A DNA stretch of 48,489 nt from Lachnospiraceae bacterium. Lineage in GTDB: Bacteria > Bacillota > Clostridia > Lachnospirales > Lachnospiraceae. The notes beneath the pieces were generated by a model that saw nothing but the letters and a program-made list of their open reading frames with translations, did not search any database and was not told the DNA's origin. The position numbers were made by a program, and so were the translations under genes. Below are positions 1 through 48,489 of this stretch, piece after piece (position 1 is the stretch's first letter; every line of letters begins with the position of its first letter). Location: positions 1 to 48,489 of the forward strand of contig JAIKZU010000004.1 of the NCBI GenBank assembly GCA_024681985.1, given 5' to 3'.

Positions 1-435
1 GTGGTGCTGGCCCAGGACGGAAAGTCCGTGATCCGGCTGACGGTATATGTAAACGGCGAGTTTTTATACTCCATCCAGGGGGATGGGATGATCTTTGCCA
101 CGCCCACGGGTTCCACGGCTTACAACCTTTCCGCCAACGGACCCATCGTGGATCCGAAGATGGAAGTGATCCTTATGACGCCCATCAATCCCCATACTTT
201 AAATTCCAGAAGCAGTATCGTTTTGGACACCCGGGATGAGATCTCCATCGAGATCACGCCCCGGCGATCCACGGCAAAGGAAGCCGCCACGGTACTCTTT
301 GACGGAAGCTTTCCCTATGAGGTGGAGCCGGGAGATAAGCTCATTGTGAAGAAAAGCCAGTACAAGACAAAGATGATCTTTATCAAGCAGATGAGTTTTT
401 TGGAGCGTATGCGAAATAAGATGCAGGAAAACTGA
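1..435 (+). CDS. nadK: NAD kinase, C-terminal part (5' truncated by window edge)
   Basis: Protein contains DGMIFATPTGSTAYNLSANGPIVDP...TPINPHTLNSRSSIVLD, typical of the NAD kinase C-terminal domain; followed by recN as is common in Firmicutes. Confidence 0.93.
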   Translation: MVLAQDGKSVIRLTVYVNGEFLYSIQGDGMIFATPTGSTAYNLSANGPIVDPKMEVILMTPINPHTLNSRSSIVLDTRDEISIEITPRRSTAKEAATVLFDGSFPYEVEPGDKLIVKKSQYKTKMIFIKQMSFLERMRNKMQEN

Positions 436-34168: not shown

Positions 34169-34705
34169 GTGTATGTGCAGATAATTAGCGAAGATCCCTC
34201 TTCGCAGGAAGAAAAACAGAAGACAAAAGCGCTGTTGGCTCTGTTGAAAAAGGAACAGCCGGACTTAAGATGTGAGGTTGTTACGAAGCAGAAAGAGAAG
34301 CCCATCCGTGTACAGTGTTTCGGAGAATTCGAAGTCTTTGGACGGGAAGGTCCCGTTACCTTTAAGCGGGCCCGCACAAAGGAACTTCTGGCGGTTTTGG
34401 TATGTCATCGGGGCAGCATGCTGACCATGGGAACCATTATGTCCATCCTTTGGGAGGACGGAGAGGATTCCGATTCCGATCGCAGTTACCTGCGTACGCT
34501 GATCAGTGATCTGAAAAAGACCTTCGCCGAGAACGGCGCTGACGATACCATCATTAAAAACTATAACAGTATCGGCTTGAATACCGGCAGCATCCAGTGT
34601 GATTATTACGATTTTCTGGACGGAAAGGTAGAAGCGGTCAAAAGCTATAACGGACAGTTCATGAAACAGTATTCGTGGGCCGAATATGAGATATCTTGGA
34701 TATGA
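34169..34705 (+). CDS. Stand-alone winged-helix (OmpR/SARP-like) DNA-binding protein
   Basis: IRVQCFGEFEVFGREGPVTFKRARTKELLAVLVCHRGSMLTMGTIMSILWEDGEDSDSDRSYLRTLISDLKKTF resembles SARP-type wHTH domains. GTG 34169 has GAGGCGGGG upstream; ORF track start is TTG 34139. Confidence 0.65.
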   Translation: MYVQIISEDPSSQEEKQKTKALLALLKKEQPDLRCEVVTKQKEKPIRVQCFGEFEVFGREGPVTFKRARTKELLAVLVCHRGSMLTMGTIMSILWEDGEDSDSDRSYLRTLISDLKKTFAENGADDTIIKNYNSIGLNTGSIQCDYYDFLDGKVEAVKSYNGQFMKQYSWAEYEISWI

Positions 34706-35205
34706 ATAAAAAAAAGGCAGCAAACTTCCTTACGGGGCTGATCATCGTTTTGATGTTGGTGGTCGCGGTTCTCGTGATCCTTAAGGTGAGAGGCGTTCCG
34801 AAACTGAATCTAGACCCCGGACGCGAAGAGAGGAAGGAAAAAAGAGAAGCGACCCAGGAAAACCTCATGGGAGAGTGGGTTGCCCCGGATGACGAGGATT
34901 TTGTCATAGACATCTGGCGGGACGAAAAAGGAATGTTCCGCGCCATCGTCAACCAAACAGACGAAGAAGGGACCGTGCTCTATTGGGAGATGTCCGGTGT
35001 ATGGAATGATTCCATGGGAGGTTTTTCTTATACCAAGGGCACCAAAAAGCAGGTTACCTACGATATAGACGGAAACGTGACGCAGGAGGTCATCTATACG
35101 GACGGCACCGGGAAGTTTACCGGTGACGGTGAGGGGCTGAAATGGAAAGATGACAAAGAGAAAATCGCTTCAAAGATAACATTTACCTATTCAGGAGAGT
35201 ATTGA
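34702..35205 (+). CDS. Single-TM protein with extracytoplasmic beta-rich domain
   Basis: MNKKKAANFLTGLIIVLMLVVAVLVIL TM; ATGA overlap with the upstream stop. Confidence 0.6.
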   Translation: MNKKKAANFLTGLIIVLMLVVAVLVILKVRGVPKLNLDPGREERKEKREATQENLMGEWVAPDDEDFVIDIWRDEKGMFRAIVNQTDEEGTVLYWEMSGVWNDSMGGFSYTKGTKKQVTYDIDGNVTQEVIYTDGTGKFTGDGEGLKWKDDKEKIASKITFTYSGEY

Positions 35206-35223: not shown

Positions 35224-37092
35224 ATGAACAATACGCAGCTGTATCCTTTTGAGAGAAACCGCTACTATCCGAGAAAGCGTATGTCCAGCGGAGACTTCAC
35301 CGCTGAGCAGACCTACATGAACAACAAACGCCGTTTCTTAAACGGTCTGATGTTTGGTTCCGGCGTGGTCTGCGGACTTGGAGTTTTCTCCCTGGATGAT
35401 CTTTCCTTCATGGTGGAAAGCGGTGTGGCCATTGATGGCATGGGTCGTGAGATCGTGGTGGAGACTTCACAGGTGAAAAAACTCTCCGCCATTGAAGGCT
35501 TCGATTCCCTGCGCACCAATCAGGTCAGCCTTTGCCTGCGCTACAAGGAAGACGATGTACACAAAGTATACTCCGTAGATCAGGACGATCCCACGGCGGA
35601 GTTCCAGTATAACCGTGTGAGAGAAGGATATACCCTGTTTTTGATCGATCAGGAAGATATCCCGGGAACCTACGACATGGAGAATGAATTCCTGTTAAGT
35701 TCCGTTCTCTATTCCAGCGCGAATTACATGGTGACCTATCGGATGCCCGCATCCGCCTGCCGCGGTCATGTGATCAAAGGGGAAGTCATCGTGGAAAAAC
35801 TCTCCGATGAGGATGTGAGCCTGACCTATTCTGCCAGACTGCAGACACCGGCCTTTTTATCCTCCGAAGGAAAGAACATCCTTCCGGTGGAGATCACGGA
35901 TCTGACCCTTAATCAGGGAGAGACCAGAGTCATCGAATACTGGATGGAGACATTGGATTCTCCCGTCAATACCACGAACATCATCATCGAAAGCGGTTCT
36001 GCCAGTGCCTTTGAAAACGACGTGGCAGCGGAGATCTTTGCCAACTTCATGATGGAGATCGTACTGACGGACTTAAAGCCCAGACAGCTTGTAAACCGTG
36101 AGATCGGCCGTATGAACCTGGAAATGAAGAACATCGGCGGACAGGGGGATTACATCCGTCTGGCTGATTTCACCCTGGTACGTACCGAGAGTGCCTACAT
36201 CATCGAGGAAGTGATAGAGACTACCGTAAAGCAGTATGTGGCAGCTCCCGCCCAGGACTTAAAGAGAGGTGATTACCTCGAGTATTTCGTAAAAGAAGCG
36301 GATATCCGTGCACCTAAGCTGGATATGAACCTTCCCCTTTTACACAGTGATTTTGCAGCTCCCGCCAAAACCGGCGGTCCCCAGATCGCTACGGGAACCT
36401 TAGAGATCCCTCTGGGTGACGACGCCAGAAAAGGCGATATCTTCTATTCCGGCGAGATCCTGCATGGATTGGGCCCCGGCAATGTTTACGTGGAAGTCGG
36501 CTACGAGATGATGTCCGACGAAGGTTTAGTGGGCTCCTCCGCAAAGAGCACCATCTACGGAAACCCGGAGATCTTCGGACATGAGGTAAATTCCGTAGTG
36601 AAGGCACAGACCGCAGTGCGCGTCTTAAACGACAAGGGAAGCTTTGTGGTGGGCGCAAAGATCTTAGACACCGTGGATTACCTGATCCTGACCTATCGCT
36701 GGGTTGCCATCCGCTTCCAGTCCGGAGAGGACTTAGAGCAGGATGTGGACGTCACCGGCATCAGTATTTCACCCGAGATGCCTACCGTTCGCATGTTGAC
36801 AAAGGAAAGCCATTACTTCGGCGTTCGCTTCGAGGGTACGGCACCCGTATCCGTCTCCTACGAACTGACGGAGGAGAACGCCGGCGATATCACGGCGGAC
36901 GGCGTATATACTGCGCCTGCCAAAGCCGGTGTATATGAGATCCGTATCTACTGCACCGATATGCCCAAGGTATGTACCTACGCCTATGCGGTGGTGGAGA
37001 AGAAGGGTATGGAAGACACTGCCGAAGATCCGAAGATCGCAGAAAAGTTGGGACTTTCCCAGGGCACAAATCTCGGTAACGTAATCAAATAA
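35224..37092 (+). CDS. Phage-tail/contractile-injection-associated-like protein of unknown function, Ig-like C-terminus
   Basis: LYPFERNRYYPRKRMSSGDFTAEQTYMNNKRRFLNGLMFGSGVVCGLGV resembles the N-terminal signature (E-R-x-x-Y-F...DF..EQ.Y...K.R..N...G.GVVCGL) of proteins in contractile tail-like loci; C-terminal DITADGVYTAPAKAGVYEIR is Ig-like. Confidence 0.55.
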   Translation: MNNTQLYPFERNRYYPRKRMSSGDFTAEQTYMNNKRRFLNGLMFGSGVVCGLGVFSLDDLSFMVESGVAIDGMGREIVVETSQVKKLSAIEGFDSLRTNQVSLCLRYKEDDVHKVYSVDQDDPTAEFQYNRVREGYTLFLIDQEDIPGTYDMENEFLLSSVLYSSANYMVTYRMPASACRGHVIKGEVIVEKLSDEDVSLTYSARLQTPAFLSSEGKNILPVEITDLTLNQGETRVIEYWMETLDSPVNTTNIIIESGSASAFENDVAAEIFANFMMEIVLTDLKPRQLVNREIGRMNLEMKNIGGQGDYIRLADFTLVRTESAYIIEEVIETTVKQYVAAPAQDLKRGDYLEYFVKEADIRAPKLDMNLPLLHSDFAAPAKTGGPQIATGTLEIPLGDDARKGDIFYSGEILHGLGPGNVYVEVGYEMMSDEGLVGSSAKSTIYGNPEIFGHEVNSVVKAQTAVRVLNDKGSFVVGAKILDTVDYLILTYRWVAIRFQSGEDLEQDVDVTGISISPEMPTVRMLTKESHYFGVRFEGTAPVSVSYELTEENAGDITADGVYTAPAKAGVYEIRIYCTDMPKVCTYAYAVVEKKGMEDTAEDPKIAEKLGLSQGTNLGNVIK

Positions 37093-37108: not shown

Positions 37109-37957
37109 TTGGAATATCACTCACAGGGTATGAGGCTTTCCGAGGTGCAGTTGATCTCGGAAAACGAATACGGACGGGTTACGGTCTGCGAAGATCTCTC
37201 ATCTTCGGAACGTACCAGATATGCGGTGTATATTACGGATGATCACGAGATCATCTCTAAACTGCATCGCGTATACCACAATGCCACGAATATTCCTTCG
37301 GATACTGAAATTTCTTATTTTTCGGACCAAGGACATTTTCTGGTGGTATTTCCGTACGTGCCTGCCAGAGAATTATTAAAGTTTTATATGGGATCCACTA
37401 TGCCGATTCCGGAATGCGAGGAAGTGTTCAAGAACTATGTCATCACCTGTATGACATCCAATCTTCCATGGCCGGTTTTATATTTGGCATTATCCCAGTC
37501 ACAGGTGAATGTGGCCCGGGACGGTTCCGTTTATCTGTCTTATTCTTTCGATCTCTCCGGACTGAATGAAGAGATCAAGGAGGGAGACTGTGTTGCTCTA
37601 TGCGTCCGGGATCTGATGGACATGCTGTCTCAGAAGCCTGCCAATATCCGCTGGGATCTTAGGGAACTTCTGACGAAGCGCAGCAAACGGGCAGTATTTA
37701 CGAGATTCACCGAGCTCTATCGGGACATAGAGGTGGCTTCCGGCAGAAATCGTAAGGGAGGCTTTTTCCGTCGTATTCTTCTTTGGTTTTCCGACAACAA
37801 AGACCAGTTGTTCCGGTTTTTTTTGACCATCAGCATCATTTTGGTGATCTTTACCATTGTCACATTTTTGACCAATGCCATTTTCGGAGATGTTCCATGG
37901 CTTCGGTTGTTCATTCGTAGCTTTGAGCGTATAGGCACCCAATCATTGACGGAGTAG
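37109..37957 (+). CDS. Pseudokinase-like domain with C-terminal TM segment
   Basis: FLVVFPYVPARELLKFYMG (hinge-like) and LYLALSQSQVNVARDGSVYLSYSFDLSGL (catalytic-loop-like, no HRD/DFG); TM LFRFFLTISIILVIFTIVTFL. TTG start. Confidence 0.45.
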   Translation: MEYHSQGMRLSEVQLISENEYGRVTVCEDLSSSERTRYAVYITDDHEIISKLHRVYHNATNIPSDTEISYFSDQGHFLVVFPYVPARELLKFYMGSTMPIPECEEVFKNYVITCMTSNLPWPVLYLALSQSQVNVARDGSVYLSYSFDLSGLNEEIKEGDCVALCVRDLMDMLSQKPANIRWDLRELLTKRSKRAVFTRFTELYRDIEVASGRNRKGGFFRRILLWFSDNKDQLFRFFLTISIILVIFTIVTFLTNAIFGDVPWLRLFIRSFERIGTQSLTE

Positions 37958-40460: not shown

Positions 40461-41702
40461 ATGAACCTACGTAACATACTTATAAATGTCCTTCGGACCA
40501 AAATACTGCCCATCTTTACACGGATGCAGCTTCTGTTAAACCCCCGGTTCATGGCCGGACGTATAACAGAATTTGTCCGCGGGTTTATCCAGAAGGTCTT
40601 AGACATCCGTCCACGGCACAAGGACGATTATTATCCCATTGGCCGTTGGCTGGTTTCCAAGCGACTGGCCTATGCCGTGGTGATCGTCGCTGCAGTTCTC
40701 TGTATCGTCTATATCGTCAGCCAGAAGAACGCGCTGTTTCCCAGCTTGAACGATGACCATATCAAAACCTATAACTACAATTCCATTTTGCTGAAATACG
40801 CCAAAGGAAAAGTTCGCATTCGCGGAAAATCCGGGTGGCTGGCTTATGAAGGAGAAGTTTCGGATGCCGCCTGTAACGGCAAGGGAACCCTCTTTAATCC
40901 TGAAGGTACGGTGATCTACGAAGGAAACTTCGAATCCAGTATGTACGAAGAGGACGGCACCCAGTATTATGATTCCGGCGCTTTACACTACGAGGGCAAG
41001 TTCCACGAAAACGAATACTCCGGCGAAGGTAAACTGTTCAGGGAGACCGGAAGCCTCGAATATGAAGGAGACTTTTTCCATAATGCCAAGGAAGGAAGCG
41101 GCATCCTCTACAACCTAAGCGGTGAGGAGATCTACAACGGACAGTTCACCCAGGATGAGATCAATTACTCCTATATGGTGGGTAAATCCGCAGCGGAGAT
41201 GGCTGCTATTTACAGCGGTGAGCGGACGCTTTACGAGGCGGAGACGGAACGTGTCCGTGTCATGGATGAGATAGGTGTCATGACCGAGGAGATTCAGGAT
41301 GAATCCTCCGTGGATGATATGGCCACTGTCAGTGCCGTTTACGTCATGGACAATACCATCCGTATCGGCAATCAGGATTACAATAGTTTCGATGGTTTGG
41401 AACAAGCTTTGGGAGAAGCTACTTACGTGGGTGATTCCTATGCCACCCTGCCGGAGCTTATGATCATCAACCGCTTAAACGAAGCTTCCAGCGTCAGTGT
41501 CATGAACGGTGTGGCGGAAGTAGTAGAGAACGAAGTCTACACGGAGTACACGGAAGTGGCTTCCTATGATACGGATTACGTGGTATATCTGCATTCCTAT
41601 GAACGGGACGGTCTGGTCTACAACTTCGTATCCATGCCGGAGGATGAAAACTTCTCCTTCTATTACATCCTGCAGAGAAATGCCAGCGATGACGCTGCAT
41701 AA
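40461..41702 (+). CDS. Single-TM MORN-repeat protein
   Basis: Repeats YEGEVSDAACNGKGTLFNPEG/YEGNFESSMYEEDGTQYYDSG/YEGKFHENEYSGEGKLFRETG/YEGDFFHNAKEGSGILYNLSG; TM LAYAVVIVAAVLCIVYIV. Confidence 0.8.
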   Translation: MNLRNILINVLRTKILPIFTRMQLLLNPRFMAGRITEFVRGFIQKVLDIRPRHKDDYYPIGRWLVSKRLAYAVVIVAAVLCIVYIVSQKNALFPSLNDDHIKTYNYNSILLKYAKGKVRIRGKSGWLAYEGEVSDAACNGKGTLFNPEGTVIYEGNFESSMYEEDGTQYYDSGALHYEGKFHENEYSGEGKLFRETGSLEYEGDFFHNAKEGSGILYNLSGEEIYNGQFTQDEINYSYMVGKSAAEMAAIYSGERTLYEAETERVRVMDEIGVMTEEIQDESSVDDMATVSAVYVMDNTIRIGNQDYNSFDGLEQALGEATYVGDSYATLPELMIINRLNEASSVSVMNGVAEVVENEVYTEYTEVASYDTDYVVYLHSYERDGLVYNFVSMPEDENFSFYYILQRNASDDAA

Positions 41703-41732
41703 CGGATACGTTATGAATGAATAGGTTAACTG

Positions 41733-41775
41733 CACATCCATTTTCCTGTGAGAAAATGGATGTGTTGCTTTTATG
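41733..41775 (+). terminator. Perfect 13-bp hairpin plus T-rich tract between the MORN gene and the ABC exporter
   Basis: CACATCCATTTTC-ctgtga-GAAAATGGATGTG followed by TTGCTTTTATG. Confidence 0.7.
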
Positions 41776-41812
41776 TGAGGGAAAGAACCCTTTTTTGAAA
41801 AAGAGGAGGTCA

Positions 41813-43990
41813 ATGCCCCGAATGTCAGAAAACCCCCGGATCAAAAATAAAGGCGTGGCGAAGGTTCCTGTGATCATGCAGATGGAAAGCAGGGAATGCG
41901 GAGCGGCGTGCCTGTCTATGGTGTTGGCCTATTACGGCAGGTGGGTGCCTTTGGAGCAGATGCGCAGGGAGTGCGGTGTTTCAAGAAGCGGTGTCAGTGC
42001 CGGCTCCATCCTCCGGGTTGCCAGGGATCACGGCTGTGAAGCAAAGGGCTACACCTTAGAGACAAAGAATCTGCGTGCGTGCATACACTTTCCCTGCATC
42101 ATTCATTGGGAGTACGAGCATTTTGCAGTGCTCTGCGGCTTTAAGGGAAAGCACGCCGTGCTCATCAATCCCCGGAAGGGCATGATCCGACTGGACTTAG
42201 AGACTTTTGAAAAAAACTTTTCCGGTCTGTGCCTGGATATTTATCCCGGTAGGGATTTTCAAAAGGCAGGGAGCAGACACAGTGTCTTTTCTTTTATCAA
42301 AGACAGACTAAAGACCATGATACCGGCGGTTTCCGTACTGACGGTGGTGATGGTATTAAATTCCCTTTTCGGTTACATCGATCCCCGGATCAATCAACGA
42401 TTTTTGGATACGGTTCTGACTGCAGGAAGCGCGGAGAGACTTTATGCTTTTATCCGTCTGGCAGCACTCATAGCTTTTCTGGAGATCTGTGTGGCTTTTG
42501 CCCAGCGGATCTTTCGACTGCTGATCTCCGGCACCCTCTTCGAAAGGGAGAGCACTTCTTTCATGAAAACGCTGATGAGTCTTCCAGAGCGGTTTTACGA
42601 CCAACGGAGATCCACGGAGCTTCTTGGGCGGTTTTCCCGCAGTACCAATGTCTCTTTGGCCATTGTCAATACCTTTGCGCCTCTTTTGGTACAGTCGGTG
42701 ATGATGGTTTTCTTTCTCACGGTAATGGTACGATCCTCTTTGCTTTTGTCGGCAGTGGGACTTTGCACCGTGATCATTAATCTAGCAGTCACCCGATGGA
42801 TGGCACAACGGCGAACGGAATACGCCAGGGTGATGATCAACGATACCTCGAAGCTTAACAGCGCCACCGTTACGGGGATCGAGATGATGGAGACCCTGCG
42901 GGCTTCCGGGGCGGAAGAAGGATATCTAAAGCGCTGGAAGGGCTACCAAAAGGATATGTTTGACCGGCAGAGCGAGTTCGCAAAAAAGGATCTGTTCCTT
43001 TCCGTATGGCCTGCCTACCTTTCCGTGTTTGCCAATTATCTGGTGATGATCATCGGTGTGTACTTAACCATGCAAGGCAGCTTTACCTTGGGACTGATGA
43101 CTGCCTTCGGCGGTTATCTGTCTGCATTTTTCATGCCGGCCAATACCCTGATCGACACCGGAAAGAACATCTTTGAGATGCGGGTGGACATGGAACGCAT
43201 CCGGGATGTAACGGATTACCCGAAGGATCCGTTTCTGGAAGAAAAAACGGGACGATATAACGGAAGGCTTTCGGGAGAGGCGAGCCTTACAAGTGTCAGT
43301 TTTTCCTATGACAAAGGAGACGACCCGGCGGTAGCGGAGGTTTCATTGCGGATCACCCCCGGAAAGCGGATCGCCCTGGTGGGAAAGAGCGGCTGCGGAA
43401 AGACCACTCTGCTAAAACTTATGACGGGGATCTATCAGCCGGATGCCGGAGACATCACCTATGACGGTCATGCCCTTTTGGATATTTCCCATAAAGCTTA
43501 TACGGACAGCGTTGCCATCGTATCCCAGGACACCCGTCTTTTTGATGAGAGCATCTTGGAAAATATCCGTCTCTGGGACGAGAGCATTCCCGAAAAAAAG
43601 GTGGAGGAGGCGGCAAAAGCGGCAGCCATCCATGAAGAGATCCTGACCATGGAGGGAGGATATGCGCATCGTCTCTCAGATCGGGGATATAACCTTTCCG
43701 GAGGACAGCGGCAGCGGATAGAAATTGCCCGGGCTTTGGCAAAGGATCCGGCTCTCTTGCTTCTGGATGAAGCCACTTCAGCTTTGGATGCCCGGACGGA
43801 AAAGCAGATATTCGATTCTGTAAAAGAGAGAAAAATCGCCTGTATCATCGTATCCCATCGCATATCCGCCGTTAGGGATTGTGATGAGATCCTGGTGATG
43901 GAAAAAGGAAGAATCGTTGCCCGGGGAGCGCATGCAGCCCTTTTGGACAACTGTGAAGCATACAAAGAACTGATCGCCGATGAATCATAG
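41813..43990 (+). CDS. Peptidase-containing ABC exporter (C39 peptidase + TMD + NBD; NHLM/PCAT-type)
   Basis: VIMQMESRECGAACLSMVLAYYGRW, HWEYEHFAVLCGF; GKSGCGKTTLLK, LSGGQRQR, LLLDEATSALD. Start placed after RBS GAGGAGG. Confidence 0.9.
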   Translation: MPRMSENPRIKNKGVAKVPVIMQMESRECGAACLSMVLAYYGRWVPLEQMRRECGVSRSGVSAGSILRVARDHGCEAKGYTLETKNLRACIHFPCIIHWEYEHFAVLCGFKGKHAVLINPRKGMIRLDLETFEKNFSGLCLDIYPGRDFQKAGSRHSVFSFIKDRLKTMIPAVSVLTVVMVLNSLFGYIDPRINQRFLDTVLTAGSAERLYAFIRLAALIAFLEICVAFAQRIFRLLISGTLFERESTSFMKTLMSLPERFYDQRRSTELLGRFSRSTNVSLAIVNTFAPLLVQSVMMVFFLTVMVRSSLLLSAVGLCTVIINLAVTRWMAQRRTEYARVMINDTSKLNSATVTGIEMMETLRASGAEEGYLKRWKGYQKDMFDRQSEFAKKDLFLSVWPAYLSVFANYLVMIIGVYLTMQGSFTLGLMTAFGGYLSAFFMPANTLIDTGKNIFEMRVDMERIRDVTDYPKDPFLEEKTGRYNGRLSGEASLTSVSFSYDKGDDPAVAEVSLRITPGKRIALVGKSGCGKTTLLKLMTGIYQPDAGDITYDGHALLDISHKAYTDSVAIVSQDTRLFDESILENIRLWDESIPEKKVEEAAKAAAIHEEILTMEGGYAHRLSDRGYNLSGGQRQRIEIARALAKDPALLLLDEATSALDARTEKQIFDSVKERKIACIIVSHRISAVRDCDEILVMEKGRIVARGAHAALLDNCEAYKELIADES

Positions 43991-45719
43991 AGGAATGACC
44001 ATAAAAAAGCATATGGAAACAGAGCCCCTAAAGGTCCGGGACCTGTTGCGGTTTCGGCTGGAAAGTATTGCGCCTGTGGATGCTTTTGTGTTTGTTCTCT
44101 GTTCTCTGGTGGCGCTGGGACTGTCTCTTTTGGTGCCGGTGATGATCCGGGCCTTGACGGGGGAGGTGCTGGAAAGGGGAAGCCTTCTTTTGCTTATGGG
44201 AGTGGGAGTGGTGCTCCTTTCTTCCGCTCTGTTTGAAGAACTCATAAAGATCCCCAAGTCTCTGGCGGGACTTCGTCTCCGGAGAAAGACCAAAAACGCT
44301 TTGGAGGAAACTCTTATGCGTCGGGTCCTAAACCTGCCCATCGATGTGGCAAAACGTTATCCGGTGGGAGAATTGAAAAAACGAATGGAGGATGCGGCAG
44401 AACTTTCCGATGTGGGGATGGATACAGCCATTGCTTTAAGCACCGGGATCTTTACCGCAGCCGCTTTTTTTATCCAGATGCTGCATTTTGAAGTCCATTT
44501 GGTGGCACCGGCTTTTTTGATCCTGGGAGTGACCATAGTCCTTACGGTAATCAATGCCCGTGCCCTCACCGGACAGAAAGCAAAGATCCAGCGGTCGGAA
44601 GCGGATCTAAGCGGTGTGGAGCTGGAGATGCTTTCCGCCCTGACAAAACTCAAGCAGACCGGAGCCGGAGAGAGAGCATACCACCGTTGGGAAGAAAAGT
44701 TTTTAAAAAATGTAAAGGATACCTATGCGCCCCCGGTTTTCCTTCGCGTCATGCCGGTGTGCATCACCGCCGTTAAACTTTTAGGTACGTTGCTTTTATA
44801 CGCGGCAGCAGCATCATGGGGCACGAAGACTGCGGACTATCTGGCGTTTTTGGCTGCTTACGGCGGCATGACCGCCGCTCTTTTGTCCCTTACGGAGTTG
44901 TCCGGAAAGATCGCGGAGATCCCCTCGCTATATGAGATGGCCTCTCCCATTTTAGATGTGGCACTACCGAAGGAAGCAGAACGGCCACCGGTAGAACCTC
45001 TTAAGGGAGACATTAGCATACGGGATTTAAGCTTTTCCTATGTGCCGGGGATCCCGGTGATCCGGGGACTGAATCTGGATATATCTGCCGGCGAATGCAT
45101 CGGTATTGCCGGGGCTACGGGCTGCGGAAAGACCACCCTGGTCCGTCTGCTTTTGGGACTTTTGACCCCTTCGGAGGGGAGCATCGCCTATGACGGTGCC
45201 GATATGAAAAATCTGGATAAAACTACCCTTCGCCGACAGATGGGGACGGTGATGCAGGACGGATTTTTGATGGCGGACGATATCCGCTCCAATGTGGCGC
45301 TGACCCGGCCGGAAGCTTCAGATGAGGAGATATGGGAAGCTCTGGATGCCGTGGGGATGAAAGACTATATCGAAGAGCTGCCACCGGGACTGGATACCCA
45401 AATCTACGAAAACGCCGGCGGTTTTTCCGGAGGGGAAAAAGCCAGACTCATGATCGCCCGGGCACTTTTGAACAAGCCGAGGATCCTGCTTTTGGACGAG
45501 GCCACAGGACCTTTGGATGTCAGGACGGAGCGAAGGGTGATGGATGCCGTCAAAGGTTATGGGGGAACAAAGATCATCGTGGCGCACCGCCTGTCAGCCT
45601 TAAAAAACTGCGACCGGATCTGTTATATGGAAAAAGGTTGCATAAAAGAGTGCGGAACCTTTGAAGAATTAGTGCAAAATGACAGAAAATTTGCTAGAAT
45701 GGTAAAAGGGCAATTTTGA
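43980..45719 (+). CDS. Second ABC exporter subunit (TMD+NBD), probable heterodimer partner
   Basis: GATGCGKTTLVRLLLG, FSGGEKARLMIARALL, LLLDEATGPLD, IIVAHRLSAL; start overlaps the upstream gene (alternative ATG 43995). Confidence 0.85.
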   Translation: MNHRGMTIKKHMETEPLKVRDLLRFRLESIAPVDAFVFVLCSLVALGLSLLVPVMIRALTGEVLERGSLLLLMGVGVVLLSSALFEELIKIPKSLAGLRLRRKTKNALEETLMRRVLNLPIDVAKRYPVGELKKRMEDAAELSDVGMDTAIALSTGIFTAAAFFIQMLHFEVHLVAPAFLILGVTIVLTVINARALTGQKAKIQRSEADLSGVELEMLSALTKLKQTGAGERAYHRWEEKFLKNVKDTYAPPVFLRVMPVCITAVKLLGTLLLYAAAASWGTKTADYLAFLAAYGGMTAALLSLTELSGKIAEIPSLYEMASPILDVALPKEAERPPVEPLKGDISIRDLSFSYVPGIPVIRGLNLDISAGECIGIAGATGCGKTTLVRLLLGLLTPSEGSIAYDGADMKNLDKTTLRRQMGTVMQDGFLMADDIRSNVALTRPEASDEEIWEALDAVGMKDYIEELPPGLDTQIYENAGGFSGGEKARLMIARALLNKPRILLLDEATGPLDVRTERRVMDAVKGYGGTKIIVAHRLSALKNCDRICYMEKGCIKECGTFEELVQNDRKFARMVKGQF

Positions 45720-45737: not shown

Positions 45738-45755
45738 GTTGCACTTGTGTTGCAG
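45738..45755 (+). promoter_or_regulatory. Direct-repeat regulatory element GTTGCAC-TTGT-GTTGCAG upstream of the leader-peptide gene
   Basis: Same architecture and 16/18 identity to 6229-6246; 11-bp period. Confidence 0.5.
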
Positions 45756-45798
45756 TGGCTGTGATAGGATGTGCATAGAATTAAGGAGGAGAAGTGCC

Positions 45799-46134
45799 AT
45801 GAAACAGATGGAGCGCTATATTAAAACCTTAACCCCCGAATTGCAGGCAAAGATGCGGGGGGCAAATACCGTAGAGGATGTCTTTCGTATAGCCCGACAG
45901 GAAAACATGGAACTTCCCGAGGAAGCGTTGGATTCCATATACGGTGGTTGCGGCACTTCCTATACATGGAAATACGAAGAATACTATAAATGCAGGATCT
46001 GTGACAGCAAGGTCAGCTTAAAGTCTGTGGGACATGATGGATTTCCCGATGTGTACTATTGCCCGAACTGCCTGACCACAAAGGACGAGACCGAGGTATA
46101 CCACTTCAGCCGCTCGTGGCAGGAGATCAAGTAA
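45799..46134 (+). CDS. Nif11-like double-glycine leader peptide precursor with Cys4 (CxxC...CxxC) zinc-ribbon-like core
   Basis: Leader MKQMERYIKTLTPELQAKMRGANTVEDVFRIARQENMELPEEALDSIYGG, then 61-aa core CGTSYTWKYEEYYKCRICDSK...VYYCPNCLTTK...; RBS AAGGAGGA 8 nt before ATG. Confidence 0.75.
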   Translation: MKQMERYIKTLTPELQAKMRGANTVEDVFRIARQENMELPEEALDSIYGGCGTSYTWKYEEYYKCRICDSKVSLKSVGHDGFPDVYYCPNCLTTKDETEVYHFSRSWQEIK

Positions 46135-46164: not shown

Positions 46165-48489
46165 TTGAAACATATGGGTTTTGGAAAAATATATAAGCGG
46201 ATCATCAGCATTATGCTTGCAGTTGCGCTGCTCTCGGGCAGCTTTTCTTCGACTTCATACGCAGCGGTGACCATTTCCCACAGTGAAAAGTCTACGAGCC
46301 TGGATCTTTTAATGGAAGTTGCTTCCGCAAACCTGGCCGTCTATGGTATGCAAACCACCAAAGAAAATGTTAAAAAAGCTCTTTTGGCAGCAGGCTATGA
46401 ACATGATCTTTTGCTCATCAGCGAAGACGAACGGGAGTCTTTTGAGGCATCTCTCACGGGATGGATCACTGTCGACAGTGACACAGAAGAGGATTCAGAG
46501 ATACCTCCCGCTAAGGTGGATCAGATTACTTCTGTTACCATTAACGATATCATCAATAAGCTGGTGGATCAGTACAATACCGCAAACGGTTGGGATATTG
46601 CGACAAAAGAACCCTTGCAGATCACTGATCCGGAGACGGGGAAGGTATCCCAGGGTTCCACCACAGCCAAGTATGTCACCTTTGATGCGGCCAAGGGATT
46701 ATCCTATGCCGGTTCGGTGCTGACCACCGGATATACCTACGGGGGGATGATGGTTGAGTATGTCCGTGAGAAGGATCCTTCCGTCAGAGTCATGTATAAC
46801 GACGATATCCTTTCGGCCATCAAGGAAAAAGTGACCACGGACACACCGGACGCCTCCATGTCGGATATCCTTTCTGCCGTACATGAGCAGGCACAGCTTG
46901 TCAGAGATACATATTCCAGCGGCACGGACAAGGACTACATAACCGAGTTTTTAGGCAAGCATGCCGTGACATATTTTGAATACACCGATGGCGGAGTCGA
47001 CGAAAGCAAGGTCCCGGCGGGAACCCTTTTTATCGGGACTTTTCTCATCGATGCCCAGACGGTAAATGACGTGTATTACCGTTACGCAAAGGACAGCATG
47101 GGCATGGCGAACCAGCCCATCATGTATTACAAATCCGAACTGGATGAAGGTCACTGGAAAGATATCGTTTCCGCAGTGGGACTGACGGATATCCTGCCTG
47201 CATCCGCCAACGTGGAAACTGCTGATCTGATGCGCCGCAACATCACCTGCGTCATCGGAAGTGACGGTATTCCCAGATACCCGGATGACGGAACGGAAGC
47301 GGATATCTTTACCATGTCAAATCCCTACGACATGGCGCAGGTACCGGAACTTTTACCTCTAAAGACACTTTTGGATTCCGGTGCCGTAAGCCAGAATACT
47401 TCCGATATATCCAACCGCTATGCGGCAGATGCGTTGTTCCGTTTTTTTAATTATGACGGATGCGGCGATAACGATTCCATGATGATCATCAGGAACAAAG
47501 CTTATCGGGATTATCTTTACGACCATTCGGATGCGGAGACCATCAAAAAAACCACCGGACCCAATCCCATCAAGCGGGCGGTGCCGGTAAACATCACACA
47601 GGAAGAGATGGATTACATCGTTTCCATGACCACACAGCAGTTAAAGCTGGAGTGTAACATGCCCCAGTGCGAGGATAAATACGCAGGGCACGGAGATGCT
47701 TTTTATGATCAGATCCTTGCCTGGGCAGAGTACTACGGGAACGATAAGTTCAAGATCAATAATACCTACGGTGGGAACGTATCCCATCCCTACATCTTTC
47801 CCATTGAGGATATGGCAGCCTCCGAATGGGAATTGGATAACCGGAGAGCCGATTGGAAGAACCCCCAGAGTTATATGATCATCATCAACGGCAAGATCGG
47901 AACCGATGATCAGAAAGCTTTTGTTGACAGATGGCTGAAAGACAGCACATATTTGGCTCCGGACAATATAACCTATACAATGAGCGGACAGTTTGCTGCC
48001 AATCACGGTGATAACATCAACGATATGTTTTACGCCTATACCGGGCTGAACTATTGGGGCGGAGATACTTCAACAAAATTCGAACTAGGCAGTAAATGGA
48101 ATGAGTTCTCCATCATGATCTACCACTTCATGGATTGGATGCGAAATATGTACGACATCCGAGACGAGGAAACGGATAAGACAGACCAGACTTTACGGGA
48201 ATTAAATGCGCTCTATCGTCAGAAGAGAGATATCGCAAATACAGTAGATGAAGAGGAAGAAGGAGAGGATGAGGAAAGCGAAGAAGCCAAAGCAGCCAGA
48301 GCAGCCAGAGCTACGGCCAGGGAAAATGCCAAGAACGAAGCAGATACGCTGATGCGGCTCATGAGCCGTGTGGATGCCACCCGGCGGGCTCGGATCTATT
48401 ACAACCTGGTCTACAATGAAAAGAATAACTACATCGTGGGACCCACGCTGCCCTACTTATTAAACCTTTTGGAAAACGGTATCGGCCCC
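46165..48489 (+). CDS. Large signal-peptide-bearing exported protein of unknown function (3' truncated by window edge)
   Basis: TTG start with GAGGAG RBS; (M)KHMGFGKIYKRIISIMLAVALLSGSFSSTSYAAVT signal peptide; open to the window end (775 codons). Not in the ORF track, presumably because no stop is reached. Confidence 0.75.
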   Translation, partial: MKHMGFGKIYKRIISIMLAVALLSGSFSSTSYAAVTISHSEKSTSLDLLMEVASANLAVYGMQTTKENVKKALLAAGYEHDLLLISEDERESFEASLTGWITVDSDTEEDSEIPPAKVDQITSVTINDIINKLVDQYNTANGWDIATKEPLQITDPETGKVSQGSTTAKYVTFDAAKGLSYAGSVLTTGYTYGGMMVEYVREKDPSVRVMYNDDILSAIKEKVTTDTPDASMSDILSAVHEQAQLVRDTYSSGTDKDYITEFLGKHAVTYFEYTDGGVDESKVPAGTLFIGTFLIDAQTVNDVYYRYAKDSMGMANQPIMYYKSELDEGHWKDIVSAVGLTDILPASANVETADLMRRNITCVIGSDGIPRYPDDGTEADIFTMSNPYDMAQVPELLPLKTLLDSGAVSQNTSDISNRYAADALFRFFNYDGCGDNDSMMIIRNKAYRDYLYDHSDAETIKKTTGPNPIKRAVPVNITQEEMDYIVSMTTQQLKLECNMPQCEDKYAGHGDAFYDQILAWAEYYGNDKFKINNTYGGNVSHPYIFPIEDMAASEWELDNRRADWKNPQSYMIIINGKIGTDDQKAFVDRWLKDSTYLAPDNITYTMSGQFAANHGDNINDMFYAYTGLNYWGGDTSTKFELGSKWNEFSIMIYHFMDWMRNMYDIRDEETDKTDQTLRELNALYRQKRDIANTVDEEEEGEDEESEEAKAARAARATARENAKNEADTLMRLMSRVDATRRARIYYNLVYNEKNNYIVGPTLPYLLNLLENGIGP

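Follow-up and report, generated by a model that had tools for sequence, protein, structure and literature searches.

How does a protein with the signature of contractile injection systems (CIS) and phage tails come to lie in an operon together with a winged helix-turn-helix (wHTH) protein, a pseudokinase, a pseudo-cyclase and a MORN protein, with no tail structural gene in view? This question is raised by a gene encoding a protein of 622 amino acids (aa) on a contig of a Lachnospiraceae bacterium (JAIKZU010000004.1; here contig C9 of genome G000). The contig, exactly 48489 bases long, is in its entirety the window analyzed here, and it stems from a fragmented assembly that is 87% complete. A preliminary description of the window considered that the gene could border a Gram-positive contractile injection locus or belong to a repurposed surface apparatus. 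We compared the locus with 195 related genomes (labelled G001 onward) and conclude that the gene almost certainly encodes a peripheral baseplate protein, of the CIS13/Cis19 type, belonging to a Clostridia CIS whose core continues on the contigs C116 and C40. As a whole, the observations are best explained, with a rough probability of 0.55, by a CIS baseplate protein that would be docked on a membrane module of the producing cell itself.

Tail genes are out of view in the window because the contig stops at position 48489. The last 141 bases of C9 are identical to the first 141 bases of C116, and the last 141 bases of C116 are identical to the first 141 bases of C40; each of these stretches is present at its two contig ends and nowhere else in the assembly, and the assembly graph therefore places the three contigs next to one another. 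On C116 are encoded the remainder of the protein that is cut off at the end of the window, a second protein of the same sec880 family, a Pvc16_N protein (PF14065), another CIS protein and the beginning of a PAAR-like protein, whose gene spans C116 and C40 and which belongs to the DUF4280 family in G086. On C40 there follow a sheath (PF04984), a tube protein (PF06841), VgrG-like spike parts (PF04717), gp25 (PF04965), two large Cis11/12-like baseplate proteins (TIGR02243; one also PF04865), Tail_P2_I (PF09684) and a STAS protein. The truncated protein at the edge of C40 has no family match itself and is homologous to an 843-aa protein of G006 with an AAA domain (PF00004, 5.1e-28), and it is probably the start of a Cis15-type AAA+ homologue. 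The sheath gene starts about 18 kb past the end of the 622-aa gene. Thus, the features by which a CIS locus of the eCIS/T6SSiv type (extracellular CIS/type VI secretion system subtype) is recognized were found, namely a sheath, a tube, a VgrG-like spike, gp25 and a J-type baseplate, a Cis15-type AAA+ protein, and proteins of the Pvc16 and PAAR/DUF4280 types. This physical linkage to CIS core genes through unique exact overlaps supports the assignment of the 622-aa protein to the CIS13/Cis19 type. The preliminary description was right in stating that the window shows no tail structural genes, a statement that does not hold beyond position 48489, where the sheath, tube, gp25 and probable AAA+ genes which it proposed to look for are present. 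Its other suggestion was a repurposed surface apparatus; on this reading a fibre-like protein was kept and there would be no working CIS. The reading could draw on the orphan homologues of G132 and of the family represented by G126 and G177, which have no CIS genes close by; it is largely refuted by the overlaps, as the window's contig joins directly to the full CIS core set and the orthologous loci do likewise, and we regard it as very improbable.

The same association is seen in other genomes. The 622-aa protein has a match in 26 of the 195 related genomes, in four of which the match is to the C-terminal half only. The identity as a CIS component is further supported by 15 related genomes in which a homologue lies on one contig with a CIS sheath (12 genomes) or with Pvc16_N (the other three, G082, G190, and G060). 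The sheath gene is located 7–13 kb downstream of the homologue in G086, G047, G135, G091, G092, and G110, and 10–16 kb upstream of it in G155, G162, G112, G023, G029, and G062. In G112, G155, and G162, which have this second arrangement, the homologue directly follows the Tail_P2_I gene, the usual place of the tail fibre or of CisA (PMC12237407). As first surmised, the window therefore contains the border of a Gram-positive contractile injection locus, with the sheath 7–16 kb away in orthologous loci on long contigs; both the structural likeness described below and the sheath and tube genes at orthologous loci, the lack of which the preliminary description had named as telling against its idea, were found.

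A single ATG-started open reading frame of 622 codons spans the gene exactly, whereas the opposite strand is interrupted by stops, and the N-terminus quoted in the preliminary description corresponds to residues 6–54. The reading frame is not a chance product, since homologues of 48–79% identity across nearly its full length exist in named genomes. These come from a scan in which 447 homologous stretches were confirmed and the best 80 loci were kept, which are the closest relatives and not a random sample, mostly rumen and gut Lachnospiraceae/Butyrivibrio. Culturable strains that carry the locus include Butyrivibrio sp. AE3009 (L110) and Lachnospiraceae bacterium XBB2008 (L133). The NCBIfam model NF053767 (CIS13 family contractile injection system protein) matches residues 8–142 (E-value, E, 6.3e-24), the first third of the model being aligned to the N-terminal 135 residues in the same kind of gene cluster; however, the long middle and the C-terminal half are uncovered and the score of 84.9 bits lies below the curated equivalog cut-off of 370, so that the protein appears related to the CIS13 family through its N-terminal domain and is not filed as an equivalog. 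A Pfam search revealed no family at E up to 1, TssK included, and a phmmer search of the PDB with this protein alone gave no match. When a profile of the family was compared with the PDB, the best match was All3314 (Cis19; 7b5h) of the Anabaena tCIS at a weak E of 0.038. Both the beta-rich body and the immunoglobulin-like (Ig-like) C-terminus of the preliminary description are present in an AlphaFold2 model of the whole protein, which is only fair (pLDDT, predicted local distance difference test, 73; pTM, predicted template modelling score, 0.38). In this model, residues 22–345 can be aligned to the receptor-binding protein (RBP) of lactococcal phage 1358 (4l92; Z 9.2, 4.8 Å, 141 residues), a middling score, and residues 509–595 match a Paenibacillus Big_2-CBM56 structure (Z 11.6) and other Ig-like domains; a search of a viral structure library yielded mainly Ig-like/Big_2 matches and nothing beyond them.

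Conservation was compared by region among 92 homologues, with no matched set of genuine tail fibres as a control. Any two of them are on average 65% identical in residues 1–142, 36% in residues 143–284, 43% in residues 285–356, 59% in residues 385–500, and 62% in residues 510–595. The C-terminal half thus appears to be conserved almost like the N-terminus, unlike a host-range tip, whose end should be its most variable part. We therefore favour a constant partner, for which the membrane module encoded alongside is the nearest candidate. An ordinary extracellular CIS, in which the 622-aa protein would be a short trimeric Alg19-like tail fibre whose Ig-like half binds a receptor of the target cell after lysis while the membrane proteins merely regulate expression or lysis, is harder to reconcile with this conservation and with the presence of the membrane proteins in every close locus with room for them. 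We consider it unlikely, although the N-terminal profile match to Cis19/All3314, whose counterpart Alg19 is the cell-binding tail fibre of AlgoCIS (PMC13314943), the RBP-like fold with an Ig-like end, the wHTH gene upstream and the STAS gene in the core would all be in agreement with it.

The neighbors that puzzled the preliminary description recur constantly wherever close relatives have a locus of this type. The gene order in the 80 loci is CIS13-like protein, pseudokinase, pseudo-cyclase, MORN protein, TolC-like protein, secreted sec880 protein, and Pvc16_N. Counting only those loci among the 80 that have enough contig, the pseudokinase is present in 71/71, the pseudo-cyclase in 60/60, the MORN protein in 59/59, and the TolC-like protein in 54/54. 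Pvc16_N occurs in 20 of the 195 related genomes and all 20 have the pseudokinase (in G013 as a fragment at a contig edge only), which outside of these 20 is found at a good score in one genome, the fragmented G005 (hypergeometric p about 2e-26, with relatedness ignored); weak matches (E above 1e-6) in six further genomes, likely other kinases, were left out of the count. In G001–G004, which belong to the window's genus, the baseplate gene, pseudokinase, Pvc16_N and TolC-like gene are all missing together; these genomes are 82–88% complete, and the joint absence suggests gain or loss as a block.

The identities of the neighbors given earlier were also confirmed. The pseudokinase model has a kinase fold over residues 1–216 (Z up to 12.9 across about 200 residues), and in its family Asp is missing from the most frequent residues at the HRD position, while 3/72 sequences keep the DFG Asp; lacking these aspartates of active kinases, the protein is classified from its sequence as a pseudokinase. 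The domain following the HAMP domain of the next protein has a profile match to the photoactivated adenylyl cyclase 5mbh (E 2.6e-8), with the first metal Asp of active class III cyclases replaced by H at position 583 in the window, where family members mostly have S, A, N or G; this points to a pseudo-cyclase. With membrane topology predicted throughout from hydropathy, the pseudokinase and pseudo-cyclase domains would be cytosolic and the MORN domain would lie outside. The possibility that the pseudokinase is EssB/YukC, known from type VII secretion, was examined by a family search and abandoned, as PF10140 has no match in its own genome and two matches below the cut-off in 56 genomes of the order; its list of structure matches (VIA-align) is without EssB, which excludes nothing. 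The TolC-like family, found here in monoderm Clostridia, has a weak profile match to TolC/outer membrane efflux proteins (E 0.002, the top matches all being TolC). Members of the family are found in L033 (5160–7217), on contig C16 of G007 (L148, 14987–18688) and, off the window, on contig C140 of the window's genome (G000; L150). The gene lies in the CIS module of close relatives and is enlarged in the window's genus; the modules of G112, G162, and G092 showed no such gene. The idea that it provides a conduit for the CIS tube was dropped as speculation for which there is no evidence. The TolC channel is narrower than the CIS tube.

How the parts might act together can be outlined by comparison with known systems. 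The 622-aa protein would, judging from fold and family, form trimers placed along the baseplate rim, with its N-terminal shoulder held by Cis12/Tail_P2_I components. Alg19, the AlgoCIS counterpart of Cis19, has an RBP- and TssK-like shoulder that is held by Alg12 (PMC13314943), and in the type VI secretion system (T6SS) the shoulder of TssK binds the baseplate and its head binds TssL/TssM (PMC6300606). With Cis19 and Alg19 the protein shares an N-terminal motif located at the same position, and with Alg19 possibly an RBP-like shoulder; however, it comprises 622 residues compared with over 1400 there. TssK is a comparison of how the protein might work, namely with an RBP-type shoulder on the baseplate and a C-terminal head contacting a membrane complex, while a sequence match is lacking and the membrane proteins here are a pseudokinase, a pseudo-cyclase and a MORN protein and not TssJLM. 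We regard the chances as about even that the conserved C-terminal half docks, by analogy, on membrane proteins of its own cell and not on a changing outside target. The partners would be the pseudokinase and the MORN protein, each predicted to cross the membrane once, and the pseudo-cyclase sensor, predicted to cross it four times. The producing cell would thereby keep the baseplate beneath its own membrane, and a signal that permits firing may be relayed by the outer domain of the sensor or by the dead kinase and cyclase domains. Such a mode of action would be comparable to that of the T6SS or of CIS which are linked to the membrane in Anabaena, haloarchaea and Streptomyces: the tCIS is held at the producer's own membrane by Cis12 and a transmembrane helix of Cis13 (PMC8894136), the haloarchaeal T6SS has the membrane protein Hbor_38620 (PMC11566945), and the Streptomyces CIS needs CisA, a membrane protein encoded at the tail-fibre position, for firing (PMC12237407). 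Both CisA and Hbor_38620 are conserved, lie in the membrane and are encoded together with a CIS, the docking of which at the membrane requires them or correlates with them (PMC12237407, PMC11566945); they are single proteins, whereas here a three-protein module with secreted partners is found, and they are likened without sequence comparison. The Streptomyces precedent also gives rise to another explanation, in which free cytoplasmic particles would contract at the membrane of their own cell under stress, recruited by the sensor module via the 622-aa protein, with lysis of the cell and not attack on neighboring cells as the outcome. The role and position of CisA (PMC12237407) and the sensor-like module adjoining the baseplate gene are compatible with such a cell-suicide CIS, but Streptomyces CIS are without fibre-like baseplate proteins, whereas an RBP-like protein is present here, and no lysis gene was identified at this locus; we judge it to be quite improbable.

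Several observations weigh against a CIS baseplate protein docked on its own membrane module. The NF053767 match is below its cut-off and covers the N-terminus alone, the Cis19 match is weak, the model of the whole protein is only fair, and Cis19, the crown protein of the Anabaena tCIS (PMC8894136), and Alg19 act as crown or tail fibre and not as an anchor. The docking is deduced from gene order, conservation and analogy, and the conserved tip could also mean a constant outside receptor. In G091 and G110 the pseudo-cyclase gene does not adjoin the other module genes. Moreover, G132 has a distant full-length homologue of 565 aa (L154, 14680–16377) without CIS genes within 40 kb and without the module, and in G126 and G177, of another family, the C-terminal half occurs alone (L153, 12044–12721; L156, 12111–12797) with neither CIS genes nor module nearby; the C-terminal half therefore has a use outside the CIS setting. 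The gene trxA lies close by in the orphan loci of G126 and G132, and by eye a DivIVA-like gene is located near the orphan homologues in G132 and G177.

The features of the window are collected in Table 1. For the upstream wHTH protein, the wHTH identity of the preliminary description was upheld, and G006 has a second homologue (L053, 572–1177, E 1.2e-20), which is located on the downstream side of the AAA+ gene, at the far end of the CIS core. Both ABC transporters inserted in the operon score under the equivalog cut-offs of their models and are probably cargo or accessory genes. The short protein behind them, with the leader-like end ELPEEALDSIYGGCG, is possibly their substrate. The sister genome G007 has the same transporter set in the same order (contig C16) and two further genes of 390 and 475 aa, the latter of which, by eye only, possibly encodes a peptide-modifying enzyme. 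The sec880 gene at the window's end is homologous to the gene preceding Pvc16_N in related CIS loci; it is doubled in the window's genus, with two consecutive genes before Pvc16_N (L147, 1–4977, and the gene in the window), and single in most other loci, and a comparison of the family with the PDB gave nothing convincing.

Table 1. Features of the window and regions of the 622-aa protein (TM, transmembrane segment)
Feature	Position	Strand	Basis
Winged-helix regulator-like protein, 188 aa	34139..34705	+	Trans_reg_C PF00486 5.5e-7; homologues upstream in sister genomes G005, G006
169-aa protein, one N-terminal TM	34696..35205	+	Hydropathy; homologues in G005, G007
CIS13/Cis19-type baseplate-peripheral protein (almost certain), 622 aa	35224..37092	+	NF053767, 7b5h profile match, 4l92 and Big_2 folds, regional conservation
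N-terminal shoulder-like docking part (putative)	residues about 1-142		NF053767 match
Variable middle	residues 143-380		Regional conservation
Conserved C-terminal half, Ig-like domain 509-595 at its end	residues 385-595		Conservation and fold
Predicted pseudokinase, 282 aa, one C-terminal TM (237-255)	37109..37957	+	Kinase fold, catalytic Asp missing, hydropathy
Four-TM sensor-like protein, HAMP and predicted class III pseudo-cyclase, 820 aa	37962..40424	+	Profile, TM pattern
MORN-repeat protein, 413 aa, one TM	40461..41702	+	MORN PF02493 E 1.5e-4, score just under cut-off
Two NHLM-type bacteriocin-export ABC transporters	41717-43990 and 43980-45719	+	TIGR03796 3.1e-218, TIGR03797 1.8e-126
Short protein, GG-type leader-like N-terminus, Cys-rich C-terminus	45739..46134	+	Sequence; homologue beside the same transporters in G007
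Secreted sec880-family protein, 3' part continued on C116	46165..48489	+	sec880 profile 2.6e-30; continuation on C116 3.5e-72
Contig end, 141 bases, identical to start of C116	48349..48489	.	Unique exact overlap

CIS of Bacillota have been recorded in gene surveys (PMC8213781) and are the nearest relatives of haloarchaeal CIS (PMC11566945). In the open-licence literature on Lachnospiraceae, rumen, MORN or pseudokinase with contractile injection no description was found of the module of pseudokinase, pseudo-cyclase and MORN protein with a CIS baseplate gene. We tentatively suggest, at somewhat less than even odds, that the CIS of monoderm Clostridia may be type VI-like and membrane-docked, with a membrane complex of pseudokinase, pseudo-cyclase sensor and MORN protein instead of TssJLM, with secreted TolC-like partners and with the 622-aa protein as a TssK-like connector. 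The locus bears on how a thick-walled cell would dock or fire a CIS. Wherever a close relative offers enough sequence, a fixed set of dead-enzyme membrane proteins accompanies the baseplate gene, and the question of anchoring is therefore directly testable in culturable Butyrivibrio or Lachnospiraceae strains.
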